This document shows, piece by piece, positions 48,384 to 53,811 of a DNA stretch of 64,000 nt. Position 1 is the first letter of the stretch, and each line of letters opens with the position of its first letter. The notes beneath the pieces are model-generated. The model was not told where the DNA came from. It was given only the letters and a program-made list of their open reading frames with translations, and did not search any database. This DNA comes from Candidatus Zixiibacteriota bacterium (lineage in GTDB: Bacteria; Zixibacteria; MSB-5A5; GN15; JACZUZ01). The position numbers and the translations under genes are program-made. The stretch is taken from the NCBI GenBank assembly GCA_024280775.1, contig JAJRPM010000013.1, positions 124,001-188,000 on the forward strand, written 5' to 3'.

Positions 48384-49292
48384 TCAGCCGCGTAAGATCA
48401 TGTTAACTATGTCTTTACGGTGCAGGACTCCTATGGGCCTATTGTCCTCGTCGACTACATACATCCGTCTGAGGTCATTCTTTATCATCAATGCAGAAAC
48501 CGGCACAATATTGTCGGTTGGCAGGACAATTTCGTGGTCATCCTGAAAAATCTGAGAAATCTCAATCTTGTCCGCCTTCTTGAGAAGCTCCTCGAAAGGC
48601 TCCTCGGGCACATCGTAGTCGGGTGTAGAGGCCAAAGATTTATAGTCAGGTAGGGCGGCGGTGAGTAAATCGCTATCAGAGATTTGACCGATTAGTTTTC
48701 CGGCATCGTCGATAACCGGAAGAGCCGAGAGGCGATGGCGAAAGAGATCATTGGCCGCCTGCCTGAGAGATTGGCTTTCTGAAATAATTACCGGATTATG
48801 TCGCATCAAGTCTGCCACAGTGATTTTCCGATTAACCATCACTCCTGACTGCCAAATAACATCCAGCATTTCATAGGGCGTATTCGCCTTTTTCAACTTA
48901 TCAATGTTCTCTCTTGAGCGAGCGAAGTTTGCCAGCGCAGAAAGTGTCTGCAGATATAAGCGAGAGATATTTGAAGGAGTCAGTAGCAAACAGACAACCT
49001 CCAGCGGAGTTCCATCGCGACAGTTCTCTACCCCGGTGCGTGAGACACCCATAGCAAGATACATTTTTGACACCGCGTCAGTGCGCGCATGCGGGAAAGC
49101 GAAACAATGCCCGTAGGAAGTGTCCTCTATCATTTCGCGTTCGAGAATCTTTTTCATGACCTCATCGGTGTCGATAGATGGGTCATGTGCAGTGATTTTC
49201 TCCAATAGTTGGTCGATGGCCTCAACTTTGCCACACCCGGTAATGTCCGGTATTAGAAACTCAGGGTTCAGCAATGTCGCCAGACGCATCAT
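48384..49292 (-). CDS. PTS EIIA (PtsN-type) domain fused to CBS pair
   Basis: Residues 1-150 form a fructose/nitrogen-type PTS EIIA domain. The phospho-acceptor His68 lies in HCFAFPHARTDAV and the family end is VCLLLTPSNIS. Residues 155-302 form two CBS domains (ITVADLMRHNPVIISESQ, ALPVIDDAGKLIGQISDSDLL, then MYVVDEDNRPIGVLHRKDIV). CBS pairs bind adenine nucleotides, so this may be an energy-sensing EIIA regulator (inference). No other PTS gene is nearby. Its start overlaps the stop of the DUF502 gene by four bases, and the two are translationally coupled. Confidence 0.88.
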   Translation of the reverse strand: MMRLATLLNPEFLIPDITGCGKVEAIDQLLEKITAHDPSIDTDEVMKKILEREMIEDTSYGHCFAFPHARTDAVSKMYLAMGVSRTGVENCRDGTPLEVVCLLLTPSNISRLYLQTLSALANFARSRENIDKLKKANTPYEMLDVIWQSGVMVNRKITVADLMRHNPVIISESQSLRQAANDLFRHRLSALPVIDDAGKLIGQISDSDLLTAALPDYKSLASTPDYDVPEEPFEELLKKADKIEISQIFQDDHEIVLPTDNIVPVSALMIKNDLRRMYVVDEDNRPIGVLHRKDIVNMILRG

Positions 49293-50080
49293 TTTGAGGC
49301 CCTCTCGGGATTTTGTTCTTCGGAGACATCCATGGCGCTAGAGATTGTTACATCTGAATTATGTGAGTTTGGGGGCTCAGGAGCAAGTCTCTTGGAATAA
49401 TCCTTTGCTGGATAAACCGTTTGGTACGGACGTCCTTTCATTGAATCAGGTGCGGCGATTCCACCGGAGACCAAGAACTTGAAGCCTTCTTCGATTGTCA
49501 TATTCAATAGTGTCACATCTGCAGGTGGAACGAGAATCACCATGCCAGATACTGGAGTCGGGGTCGAGGGGATAAAGAGGCAGACGAGATCTTTCTTGGT
49601 GGAGATGTTAGTATTGGGGCTATTGGTATCGGTGTTGTTTTCATCGATTTGCAATTCCGTACGATTCACCAAAAACGCCAACGCGTAAGAGCCGCGACGA
49701 GGATACTCCACCAGCACAACTTGCTTGAAGGCATGCTTGTTGGGTAGAGTGACCCCTTCTACTAGTTGCTTAGCAGCGCCATAAATTGTGCGCACACCCG
49801 GAAAACTGGTAAGGAGTTTTTCGCCATAGCGCAGAAAGTTTGCTCCGACTAAGTTTCTCGCAAAGAAACCTACCAAGAGGATTAGCAGTATGGTGGTGAC
49901 AAGTCCCAAGCCGGGGATACTGTAACCGAAAATATGTTTGACAATCGGCGCGAGCACACCATCGATAGTCTCAAAGAAAAATCTAAGCAGAATGAAAGTG
50001 AGTATCAGCGGCGCAACCACCAGAGCGCCGGAGATGAAATTCCGCTTGAGGATTAGTCTTATACGTTGGGATAAAGGCAC
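49289..50080 (-). CDS. DUF502 family membrane protein
   Basis: The 263 residues begin with a basic stretch and the DUF502 hallmark NFISGALVVAPLILTF, followed by a second helix (GLVTTILLILLVGFFARNLVG). FPGVRTIYGAAKQLVEG then FVLVEYPRRGSYALAFLVN-like sequence and a cytosolic tail are the usual features. DUF502 proteins lie in the membrane and their role is unknown. The start is GTG, supported by GGAG seven bases upstream. The link to the EIIA-CBS gene by overlap suggests a joint function (inference). Confidence 0.87.
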   Translation of the reverse strand: MPLSQRIRLILKRNFISGALVVAPLILTFILLRFFFETIDGVLAPIVKHIFGYSIPGLGLVTTILLILLVGFFARNLVGANFLRYGEKLLTSFPGVRTIYGAAKQLVEGVTLPNKHAFKQVVLVEYPRRGSYALAFLVNRTELQIDENNTDTNSPNTNISTKKDLVCLFIPSTPTPVSGMVILVPPADVTLLNMTIEEGFKFLVSGGIAAPDSMKGRPYQTVYPAKDYSKRLAPEPPNSHNSDVTISSAMDVSEEQNPERASK

Positions 50081-50242: not shown

Positions 50243-51820
50243 CTAGAACCCAAAGACGCTGGCGGCCTGAACAGTAATTTCCTGAACAGCCGCAGGGTTT
50301 ATACCCGCATAGACGAGCATCGCACAAGTGAGTACCGCCGCCAGCCTCATTGAAGGAGTAAGATGTGGCGTTGTGTAAGTGAGCCCTTGCTTCGGCTTGC
50401 GGAGCATACTCCAGATTACCCGGGCAATCGAGAACATTATCACAAGTGAGACGACAATGATTAGTGAGAACGCCCACCATTGCTGGGAATCAAGCGCCGA
50501 TTCAACCAGTTCTTTTCTAGCTATGAAACCTCCGGTGAGCGGGACAGCGCCTATTGAGGCTAGCGTCAGAATCAGCAACCCGGCGGTGAGTGGCGAACGA
50601 TGCGCCAGTCCGCTCAAATCTGAAAGCGAGGTTTCGGCAATTCGTCCGTTCTGATGCTGAGTCTTGGTTTCCCGGGACTCTATGCGTTCAATTAGCGGTA
50701 TGGCTACAGCCAGAGCGAGAACCGCGAAAAGAACTTGAAGTAATGAACCGGAAAGTCCGACTGTGCTGGCGCTGATTATTCCAATTAGAGCAAATCCACC
50801 CTGCGCGAGAGAAACCCAAAGCAACAATCTTCTTGCTGAGCGCTCGCGAAGTATTACGATAACTGTCAGGAGCATAGAAATCGTGAAGATAGTAGTCAGC
50901 GCCGGAGCCCAATCCAAGGGCGCCATTACATCACCGGAAAAAGCAATCAGCACGTTATCGAAAATTCTTGCTATGGCAATTGTGCCCGACAGTAAGCCGG
51001 TGAGAATAGCGAGCGGCAGAGCGCCGCAACGTCTTGAGGCATGGAATTCTCCCAGCCACATATGAAACGGCGCCAATCCCAATTTCGACGCCAACCCTGC
51101 CGCTATTAGCGCTATCGCAAGTATTAGCCCCGGTCCTAGTTTCTTGTAGGTAAGGAATACAATCGAAATGTTGATGCGTAGCTGAAGCAGGTTTGTCTCC
51201 CCGCCAATTCCGTATATAGTGGCAATTCCAAAGAGCAGAATAAGCGAGCTAAAGAGGCCGTAACCAAAAACCCGCAGAAAGCGAGAGCGTAATTCTTCGG
51301 AATCATTATTCTCCTCGCCATTAGTGTCAGTTTTGATTTCACTCTCTGCAATTTCAGTTATTCCACGATAGTACAAATACAATGGTATAGCGCAGAGTTC
51401 GATTCCAATAAACAAGGTCAACAGGTCATAAGCGGCTGACAGAAAGAAAACTCCTCCGGCGCTAAGCAACATCAGCGGGTAAGTAAGCTCCAGAACACGC
51501 CTGTGTGAACGAGTCGCCAGAACTGAGTCAGACGCCGGAGGCAGGAAAATTGCCATCAAGGCAAACCCACCTACTGCGGTGAGTCTGAAAAACCTGCTAA
51601 AGGGGTCATGCATCATGGTCGCCATGAAATCCGACGAGAATTGCGTTTGCAATTCCAGCCAACCGCTCAGTAGCAATATGGTGATTGTCCAAAGACGCAA
51701 GATTGCCGCGCGATTGGATTCAGGTACGATGCGAGTGAGTACCATCCCTAGCGCTGCGCCGCAGAACAAAAGAAGAATCGGACCTAGGGAGATGAGTGTG
51801 GAGGTGTTTTCTGCGCTCAT
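50243..51820 (-). CDS. NuoN-like proton-pumping subunit, divergent
   Basis: The 525 residues have about 13-14 membrane segments of the antiporter-like NuoL/M/N family. Glu141 in TLFIGIELCAIPLY is conserved (the TM5 Glu) and so is Lys246 in GLASKLGLAPFHMW (TM8). The lysine of TM7 is replaced by Arg183 (SRFLRVFGYGLF). The TM12 position has Arg435 (GGFIARKELVE) where Lys is usual, although Lys436 follows. It is therefore complex-I-like but not a canonical NuoN. It overlaps the NuoK-like gene by four bases. The other Nuo subunits are not in the window. Confidence 0.8.
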   Translation of the reverse strand: MSAENTSTLISLGPILLLFCGAALGMVLTRIVPESNRAAILRLWTITILLLSGWLELQTQFSSDFMATMMHDPFSRFFRLTAVGGFALMAIFLPPASDSVLATRSHRRVLELTYPLMLLSAGGVFFLSAAYDLLTLFIGIELCAIPLYLYYRGITEIAESEIKTDTNGEENNDSEELRSRFLRVFGYGLFSSLILLFGIATIYGIGGETNLLQLRINISIVFLTYKKLGPGLILAIALIAAGLASKLGLAPFHMWLGEFHASRRCGALPLAILTGLLSGTIAIARIFDNVLIAFSGDVMAPLDWAPALTTIFTISMLLTVIVILRERSARRLLLWVSLAQGGFALIGIISASTVGLSGSLLQVLFAVLALAVAIPLIERIESRETKTQHQNGRIAETSLSDLSGLAHRSPLTAGLLILTLASIGAVPLTGGFIARKELVESALDSQQWWAFSLIIVVSLVIMFSIARVIWSMLRKPKQGLTYTTPHLTPSMRLAAVLTCAMLVYAGINPAAVQEITVQAASVFGF

Positions 51821-52464
51821 ATCTTGCTAGTCCTGGCGTTAATAATAGACTGATTGGCATTGGAGGGCCGCGCTTTGCCAGGCTTTGTTTTTCCTGGCTT
51901 TGCCTTCTCTAGCTCGGCTTTCTTGCGACGATGCAGGATGTGTGACAGGGCGCCTACCCCAAACACAAAGGCTAATGCCGCGGGGATTGATAGTCTCATT
52001 AACAAGTAACCAATGACAAAGACAATCAACACTGCGACTTGAAAGGCGAAACTCTCTGAAAAGGAAACGATGCCTGTAAATCCGTCACCTCCGCGTCGCG
52101 AGAAACCCATCCTGGCAGTCGTGGATGATGTTGCGCCATGGAGCGCCGCTTCATTCTTGGCATCTTCTGAGAAGTTGTGTTTCTGTGTAGCTGGAGCGGT
52201 TTTTCGCGCATCGACTCGTCGGACGAATTGGGCCACGAAGACTCCATACACTACAGACAACAGTATCACAAAGAGCGCAAAGAAGTAACCATTTGTCTCT
52301 GCGGGTTGAATCAATCGGTTGAAGGTCACAAAGGCCAAGACGATAGCGGCCGCTGAAATTGAGAGCGATAAGAGAGCCCCGGCGAAGGAGCGTCTAGTTA
52401 GCGCGCCATAGAAACCGATTGCGAATAACAGGCCGGCAAGAGTCATGTAGCGTACAATTTCCAT
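51817..52464 (-). CDS. NuoK-like membrane protein lacking both key glutamates, with C-terminal extension
   Basis: Residues 1-88 match NuoK by its three-helix pattern (LLFAIGFYGALTRRSFAGALL, broken here for length, then FALFVILLSVVYGVF). The two membrane glutamates essential in E. coli NuoK (Glu36 and Glu72) align with Ser35 and Tyr73 here. The 127 C-terminal residues (from about 89) are not NuoK. They include a charged linker, two hydrophobic segments and a Lys/Pro-rich end (AKPGKTKPGKARPSN). Loss of both glutamates argues against proton transport by this subunit. The stop overlaps nuoN. Confidence 0.7.
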   Translation of the reverse strand: MEIVRYMTLAGLLFAIGFYGALTRRSFAGALLSLSISAAAIVLAFVTFNRLIQPAETNGYFFALFVILLSVVYGVFVAQFVRRVDARKTAPATQKHNFSEDAKNEAALHGATSSTTARMGFSRRGGDGFTGIVSFSESFAFQVAVLIVFVIGYLLMRLSIPAALAFVFGVGALSHILHRRKKAELEKAKPGKTKPGKARPSNANQSIINARTSKI

Positions 52465-53015
52465 TAATTCTGAAATTCCTTTTCAGTAACAGCCGGTTTA
52501 TTCTGCGCAACAACTTTACCTCGCCTGACTTGGTAGGCGAACAGCGCCACAACACCCAGCGCCAAAAGCCAGCCAACTACAGCGGCCAAATACTGACCGT
52601 TAAGTTTGCCGAAGATCTGTGAAGTAATATCCAGTGAAGCAACACCGGGTTGTGGGCTCCAAATGCTGTAAATCCAAACGGGCGTGACAGCCATTACGAA
52701 ACAAAGCAGAACAAATACCGCCACCATTTGATTCGGGCTTGCCACCATACGCACATCATCATCCGCCCGTTCGCCGTAGTTCTTGAATTTGACTTGATAC
52801 ACAACAAGAGCAATAACTCCTATTGCGCTTTGCGCGATTGCCAAAAACACCAAGTCCAACCAGAAAAACATGCCACCCAAACTCAGACAAAACAGAGAGA
52901 AGGCAAACACTGCGCTTTTGGGAGATTTTATTGTCACAGCGCTGATAGCTGTTGCGAGGATCCCAATGGCGAAGGCGAAGAACGCAAAGTCTGATGTTGT
53001 CCCTGTTGGCGCCAT
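52464..53015 (-). CDS. NuoJ-like membrane protein, divergent
   Basis: The protein begins MAPTGTTSDFAFFAFAIGIL and follows the NuoJ layout: SPKSAVFAFSLFCLSLGGMFFW, then QSAIGVIALVVYQVKF in place of the NuoJ helix with the conserved Tyr-Ala-Gly-Ala motif. The Tyr of that pi-bulge region aligns with Ala here. A C-terminal helix (LNGQYLAAVVGWLLALGVVALF) and a polar tail complete the 183 residues. I chose ATG 53015, with GGAAAT upstream; the TTG at 53072 is unlikely. The stop overlaps nuoK as TAATG. The three genes form one operon. Confidence 0.65.
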   Translation of the reverse strand: MAPTGTTSDFAFFAFAIGILATAISAVTIKSPKSAVFAFSLFCLSLGGMFFWLDLVFLAIAQSAIGVIALVVYQVKFKNYGERADDDVRMVASPNQMVAVFVLLCFVMAVTPVWIYSIWSPQPGVASLDITSQIFGKLNGQYLAAVVGWLLALGVVALFAYQVRRGKVVAQNKPAVTEKEFQN

Positions 53016-53203: not shown

Positions 53204-53593
53204 CTAGTCGAAGACTACTATCGCATCGATTTCTACCAAAACATCCTTCGGTAATCGCGCGACTTCTACAGTTGCTCTAGCGGGAAACGGTTCGGAAAAG
53301 AATGTGCCGTAGACAGCGTTGATTGCCGCAAAATCATCCATTGATTTTACGTAGATGGTGGTCTTGACTACGTGCGCGAGGTTAGCGCCACCGGCGCTGA
53401 TAACAACGCTTAGATTTTGCAGGACTTGCTTGGCTTGCTCTGTAGCGTTGGAGCCGACAATTTCAGCGGTATTCGGGTCAAGCGGGATTTGTCCGGAGCA
53501 ATACAACGTTCGGGCGCCGGAACTAATTACCGCTTGTGAGTAGGGTCCGATTGCTGACGGGGCTTTATCGGTTTGAACTATCTCTTTCGACAT
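53204..53593 (-). CDS. ridA: RidA family reactive intermediate deaminase
   Basis: RidA hydrolyses reactive enamine and imine intermediates released by PLP enzymes to keto acids and ammonia. The 129 residues show AIGPYSQAVISSGARTLYCSGQI, LQNLSVVISAGGANL, then KTTIYVKSMDDF and the family end ARATVEVARLPKDVLVEIDAI. The Arg in PARATVEV binds the carboxylate. The ATG at 53593 is preferred because AGGA lies eight bases upstream; another ATG three codons earlier lacks spacing. It is a single gene after the divergent Nuo-like trio. Confidence 0.95.
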   Translation of the reverse strand: MSKEIVQTDKAPSAIGPYSQAVISSGARTLYCSGQIPLDPNTAEIVGSNATEQAKQVLQNLSVVISAGGANLAHVVKTTIYVKSMDDFAAINAVYGTFFSEPFPARATVEVARLPKDVLVEIDAIVVFD

Positions 53594-53811
53594 ATTGCAC
53601 ATCCTTTTGGTTTGAGGTCTTGAAAATTAATGAATTGCCGGCGCCCTAATACGCAGGCGCATCGACTAAGGAATCCTATAGCCATTCGAAAGTCAATTTC
53701 GATGAAAGAAGATGAAAGAGTTGTCTGTGCAAATCTGAAAACAGCAGGTTGAAAGTGCGATTAGGAATACGCGAGGCGTTTTCCGCGTGGGTTGGAAGCC
53801 TCGATGATGAA

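Follow-up and report, generated by a model that had tools for sequence, protein, structure and literature searches.

Introduction

In complex I, the subunits NuoJ, NuoK and NuoN are grouped with the end of NuoL at the heel of the membrane arm. The modular evolution of this enzyme is usually described as a process of addition, in which small antiporter-like modules joined redox modules. A membrane block of the J-K-N type is reused with different partners in complexes of the Mbh/Mbx/Fpo type (also PMC7419157). NuoJ, NuoK and NuoN are the counterparts of MrpA-C, MrpC and MrpD of the Mrp Na+(K+)/H+ antiporter, for which a Na+ route has been proposed at the MrpC/MrpD interface near the TM5 glutamate, and in which MrpC has histidines in place of the NuoK glutamates (PMC7419157). 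In E. coli, the NuoN substitutions K247A and K395A severely reduced activity (PMC13073174), and removal of TM16 of NuoL left negligible quinone reductase activity (PMC3274701).

Here we describe a locus of Zixibacteriota that encodes relatives of NuoJ, NuoK and NuoN. It is located in a stretch of 64,000 nucleotides that was analysed as a whole and is called the window throughout. A first-pass annotation of the window had singled the three genes out as a stand-alone, possibly purpose-built membrane module. In the open-access literature that was searched, neither a J-K-N unit standing alone nor a reduction of complex I in Zixibacteria was described.

Results

The three genes are found at positions 50243-53015 of the minus strand and overlap at TAATG and ATGA junctions, as the first-pass annotation had reported. 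The NuoJ-like gene (52464..53015, minus strand) encodes 183 amino acids without the NuoJ motifs YVGA and FE. It overlaps by 1 bp (TAATG) the NuoK-like gene (51817..52464, minus strand; 215 amino acids), which is NuoK-like from residue 1 to about residue 88 and continues in a long C-terminal extension. The latter overlaps by 4 bp (ATGA) the gene for a NuoN-like antiporter subunit of 525 amino acids (50243..51820, minus strand). The N-like protein matched the Pfam family Proton_antipo_M with an E-value of 5.7e-29 and the NCBIfam NuoN subfamily model with 2.2e-42, and the K-like protein matched Oxidored_q2 (E 7e-9). The match of the J-like protein to Pfam Oxidored_q3 (E 8e-4) is under the curated cut-off; a profile-profile comparison with canonical NuoJ gave a probability of 97.9 and an E-value of 4e-13. 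AlphaFold models of J and K, built on four-row alignments, had a mean pLDDT near 54 and are informative barely past their helix counts; the weak J model had NuoJ chains as its best Foldseek matches (E 0.018 at best), which is supportive at that level. Profiles, the synteny with full operons and the trees described below bear out the common descent of the trio with complex I genes.

The first-pass annotation had proposed that a second, complete nuo set elsewhere in the genome would make the trio a separate unit, and that otherwise it could be a split complex I. The window genome (3.17 Mb, 97% complete) contains seven Proton_antipo_M genes, which are the L, M and N genes of each of two complete nuo clusters plus the N gene of the trio. 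Both complete clusters are on contig C7, with subunit names mostly assigned from reading the sequences and not from a library search, and each has its own J, K and N. One is of the 14-subunit type with NuoE, NuoF and NuoG, and its start lies beyond the stretch retrieved. The other is of the 11-subunit type and adjoins 2-oxoacid:ferredoxin oxidoreductase genes; at L008:358-18127 it comes directly after genes that read as subunits of this enzyme, and a 1198-aa DNA-methylase-like protein is encoded directly downstream of its nuoN. The genome G001, of the same genus, has two L-M-N sets besides the trio, and each of the five trio carriers of a sister family (f4) keeps a single further complex I that includes L, M and N; in G012 it was read gene by gene. 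In G006, two more Proton_antipo_M genes are found outside the known nuo clusters (contig C10:3785-8238) and possibly belong to a Mrp or hydrogenase-type complex. Since the genome of the window has two complete complex I clusters, the trio stands apart from them and is not a split complex I. The idea that it represents a divergent complex I with the remaining subunits scattered elsewhere would account for the homology of its subunits to those of complex I, but it is refuted by the two further sets with their own J, K and N; moreover, the trio lacks E-channel residues that every other copy keeps. We give that idea next to no chance.

To follow the locus in relatives, 132 genomes of the phylum were searched with the K profile and with DUF502, and the loci were then read gene by gene. 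A single J sequence used as the query gave no match outside the family of the window, a problem that the use of DUF502 as an anchor got round. Many NuoK matches in other genomes were located about 5 kb upstream of DUF502. In the window, the reduced locus is bordered upstream by a RidA-family gene (53204..53602, minus strand), part of a conserved framework, and downstream by the gene for a DUF502 membrane protein (49289..50080, minus strand), which adjoins the full nuo operon in relatives. The DUF502 gene is overlapped by a conserved downstream neighbour that encodes a PTS EIIA-2 + CBS protein (48384..49292, minus strand). The synteny of the trio proved to be conserved in four of the four genomes of the window's family (f1), with RidA on one side and DUF502 on the other; the contig of G003 stops within N, so that its DUF502 side is unseen.

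A full nuoABCDHIJKLMN operon of 11 subunits was found beside DUF502 in the families f2, f3, f4, f5, f10, f12, f15 and f16; some of these operons are truncated by contig ends, family f11 was partly read, and PTS_EIIA/CBS is mostly also present. The full 11-subunit operon at the RidA...DUF502-PTS_EIIA/CBS locus is the state of most Zixibacteriota read. The upstream framework TolB-DUF-HDGYP-RidA is shared with G030, and in G021 RidA adjoins nuoA. J, K and N only were found in ten genomes: G000-G003 (f1); G012, G024 and G081 (g12); G082 (g48); G018 (g16); and G069 (f8). Here g12, g48 and g16 are three genera of the sister family f4, and f8 is a distant family of a different order, in which the upstream side of the J-K-N locus was unmatched to RidA. 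In G015 the locus has no nuo genes, with DUF502 directly after RidA, and several more distant families have DUF502 without nuo genes beside it. None of the eight loci inspected outside the phylum (L050-L057, with L050 cut at its edge) has a J-K-N trio; there the match is accompanied by other nuo or antiporter genes. It is well supported that the trio is an 11-subunit operon reduced in place by deletion of A-I and L-M, with J, K and N left. The purpose-built system envisaged at first has thus given way to a remnant of a complex I operon that is still intact at the same place in relatives.

Other features of these loci deserve mention. In many of the phylum's families the DUF502 and PTS_EIIA/CBS pair (48384-50080) adjoins the 11-subunit complex I, and it persists where the nuo genes were reduced or lost; a regulatory link of this pair to the ion or energy state is possible. 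In f16 (L074, L145, L146) an extra gene of ~236 aa separates nuoK from nuoL in the full operon, whose NuoJ is unusually long (about 284-299 aa). In L143 (G111), nuoM and nuoN are separated by two additional genes (188 and 199 aa).

NuoH, NuoL, NuoM and the peripheral arm had been described as missing from the trio. Indeed, none of the nuo A, B, C, D, H, I, L or M genes is near it in the window, but NuoL is not wholly absent: residues 144-180 of the K-like protein (51925..52035, minus strand) resemble the C-terminal end of NuoL, i.e., the last TM helix and the helix that follows. A C-terminal extension on K is found in f1, g16 and f8 and is absent from g12 and g48. The NuoL likeness is borderline for the window copy alone and significant in its relative G002, in g16 and in f8. 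The NuoL end was the best match of the f1 tail among all eleven subunits of the full operon, and also of the g16 tail (compared with L, M, N and J) and the f8 tail (with seven subunits). With a pooled NuoL profile the E-values were 7e-6 for the g16 tail, 1.8e-4 for the f8 tail and 0.009 for the f1 tail. Among 300 hydrophobic control segments the smallest E-value was 5e-3, with none near the 7e-6 of g16, and 4 of the 300 reached the 0.009 of f1; these controls had the length of the g16 tail and were run with the pooled NuoL profile only, outside the family-wise profiles, so that for f8 and f1 they give a rough guide. When the NuoL ends were grouped by family, the g16 tail fitted f4 (E 2.4e-9), the f8 tail fitted the outer families (E 2.3e-5, with f4 second at 7e-5) and the f1 tail fitted f3 (E 7.9e-4). 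Both the NuoL of the outer families and the f8 tail end after one helix, with no second helix. The tail of G002, the clearest in f1, scored 58-63 against all four f3 tails (shuffle maximum 44), and the window's own tail scored 50 (shuffle maximum 47).

In the family of the window, K appears to have gained the NuoL end, with the last membrane helix, by fusion. Most simply, the deletions would have ended inside nuoL in three lineages (f1, g16 and f8), each time in the lineage's own NuoL. That each K tail best matches the NuoL of its own relatives speaks for separate deletions in place that led to one and the same result. A helix needed in complex I, TM16 of NuoL, was thereby kept in three lineages.

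In a species tree built from the NuoL-M-N of the 14-subunit complex, f1 grouped with f2 and f3, and f4 contained the remaining trio carriers, a topology that needs at least three changes between the full and the J-K-N states, plus f8. In a joint NuoN tree the trios all fell into a single clade (95/99), under a long-branch warning, and f1 was placed with g16 at 84/69; this tree was read with reserve, as long branches come together in it. When NuoN was added one lineage at a time, f1 was located outside f4, g12 and g48 inside f4, and f8 with the outer lineages; g16, on a very long branch, went to f3, not to f4. An arrangement with f1 and f8 outside f4 was not rejected by the AU test (p 0.10), and the tree of the flanking gene DUF502 follows the families. 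A single reduction, with a J-K-N cassette then passed horizontally to the same locus of other lineages through recombination of the flanking regions, would explain the unity of the trio NuoN in the joint tree, including the pairing of f1 with g16, as well as the K-NuoL fusion common to three lineages. Against such a spread stand the long-branch warning on that tree, the position of f1, g12, g48 and f8 near their own relatives when placed singly, the fit of each K tail to the NuoL end of its own relatives (including f8 without the second helix), the lack of a tail in g12 and g48, and the vertical descent of the flanking DUF502. We consider it distinctly improbable; most likely, judging from these comparisons, the same J-K-N reduction would have arisen independently at least three times.

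Residues were compared in a table of the retrieved trio, 11-subunit and 14-subunit sequences, in which all 11- and 14-subunit copies keep every listed residue and motif. The shared divergence of J, K and N that had been noted from the letters of the window was borne out. The same losses recur in every trio: the first NuoK glutamate, the NuoJ motifs YVGA and FE and the TM8 lysine of NuoN are all gone. In the NuoK-like protein of the window both channel glutamates are replaced (Ser35, Tyr73), and among the trios the second one is found in g12 only. The NuoN-like protein of the window retains the conserved TM5 glutamate, Glu141 (51398..51400, minus strand), and the conserved TM7 lysine, Lys246 (51083..51085, minus strand); the central TM8 lysine is lost to Leu276 (50993..50995, minus strand), and the TM12 lysine position keeps a basic residue, Arg435 (50516..50518, minus strand). 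The TM5 Glu/TM7 Lys pair is present in all trios except f8, and the basic TM12 residue in every trio, as Arg in most and Lys in two, with the N sequence of G003 cut off after TM7. The loss of pump residues, considered together with the E. coli mutant data, makes it unlikely that the trio works as a normal pump.

Selection was measurable in g12 only, where the dN/dS values (NG86) were 0.12-0.17 for J, 0.04-0.08 for K and 0.16-0.21 for N, next to 0.09-0.14 for the neighbouring RidA and 0.05-0.09 for HD-GYP; saturation of synonymous sites in the genus of the window left K and N without ratios. The frames are open and tightly packed in ten genomes of five lineages, and in f1 the trio is present in four of four members despite about 25-65% identity. 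We infer that the trio is under purifying selection, from the measurements in g12 and, elsewhere, from the intact frames in ten genomes. A module under selection has a function. The series of full, J-K-N and empty loci, together with the fast sequence divergence and the lost catalytic residues, could instead describe a functionless, decaying relic, at a late stage between the full operon and a loss such as that in G015. Such decay is hard to reconcile with open, tightly packed frames in all five lineages, with g12 ratios of 0.04-0.21 comparable to those of RidA and HD-GYP, with the same three genes being left each time, and with the trio's presence in every f1 member at that level of identity. 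We therefore regard a relic as very unlikely.

Discussion

The sequences indicate that the trio is likely a maintained, redox-independent membrane module, in which J, K (with the NuoL tail) and N would stay together as the membrane block that they form in complex I. Since it has no quinone subunit, peripheral arm or E-channel residues, the trio cannot be a redox-driven pump, and the loss of the TM8 lysine means that it is not a standard proton relay. The half-channel signature of N, i.e., the TM5 Glu/TM7 Lys pair with a basic TM12 residue, favours a redox-independent ion exchanger or a regulated leak. Redox-independent ion exchange or leak is our first choice for the transport function, a tentative one that we place well below an even chance; the f8 trio, without the TM5 Glu and TM7 Lys, counts against an ion transport common to all trios. 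The joint proposal that the operon was reduced in place, has been maintained and would now likely be a redox-independent ion exchanger or leak is, in our judgment, evenly balanced.

The main rival is that the trio forms an accessory or assembly subcomplex, bound to the 14-subunit complex I, whose membrane arm it would modify or stabilise. In every trio carrier that was searched (all but G069) a further L-M-N set of complex I has been kept, J, K, N and the NuoL end are adjacent at the membrane-arm heel, and an accessory part would tolerate the loss of pumping residues. However, the 14-subunit enzyme already includes a J, a K and an N, further complex I sets are also present in the trio-less G015 and in genomes with the full operon, and the trio and the 14-subunit complex I have no gene neighbourhood in common. 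We find an accessory role unlikely and prefer the redox-independent module.

While complex I evolution is usually seen as addition, the Zixibacteriota show the reverse, apparently repeatedly: an enzyme taken back to one membrane block, which is selected without its redox engine. The series of full, J-K-N and empty states at one locus, with the K-L fusions, amounts to a set of natural mutants that may show which parts of the membrane arm can stand as a unit on their own and what role falls to the TM8 lysine and the E-channel residues. The pattern suggests that a piece of complex I may repeatedly have been given a new job. We put somewhat below even the full claim that complex I was repeatedly and independently reduced to a J-K-N block, with an L helix fused in three cases, and that this block would have a new redox-independent job.

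Among the known systems, complexes of the Mbh/Mbx/Fpo type differ from the trio in having a redox module, of which none is encoded at the trio locus. The core of the Mrp antiporter (MrpA-C, MrpC and MrpD) is a block homologous to the trio, and the NuoK glutamates are absent from both. Unlike the mrp genes, six or seven of which occur together, there are three genes here, with RidA and DUF502 as neighbours and without genes for the MrpA N-part, B, E, F and G. The aligned segments of the trio also show no MrpC His37/His40, no counterpart of MrpA-C Glu706 and no MrpD TM8 lysine (residues as named in PMC7419157), and its N protein scored 145 bits with the NuoN model vs 74 bits with the models of Na+/H+ antiporter subunit D. 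The specific Mrp residues being absent, the trio is not filed as a Mrp antiporter. Compared with the 11-subunit complex I, it has no A, B, C, D, H, I or M and only the end of L, so that at the locus it is without the quinone-site and peripheral-arm subunits (H, B, C, D and I). The E-channel residues were lost from the window and the other trios, with g12 keeping the second NuoK glutamate, and in NuoN the TM8 Lys was lost and the TM12 Lys of the window became Arg435, while TM5 Glu141 and TM7 Lys246 were kept. Nonetheless, the J, K and N of the trio are homologous to those of the 11-subunit enzyme, and they are found in the same order and at the same chromosomal place as in the full operon of its relatives.
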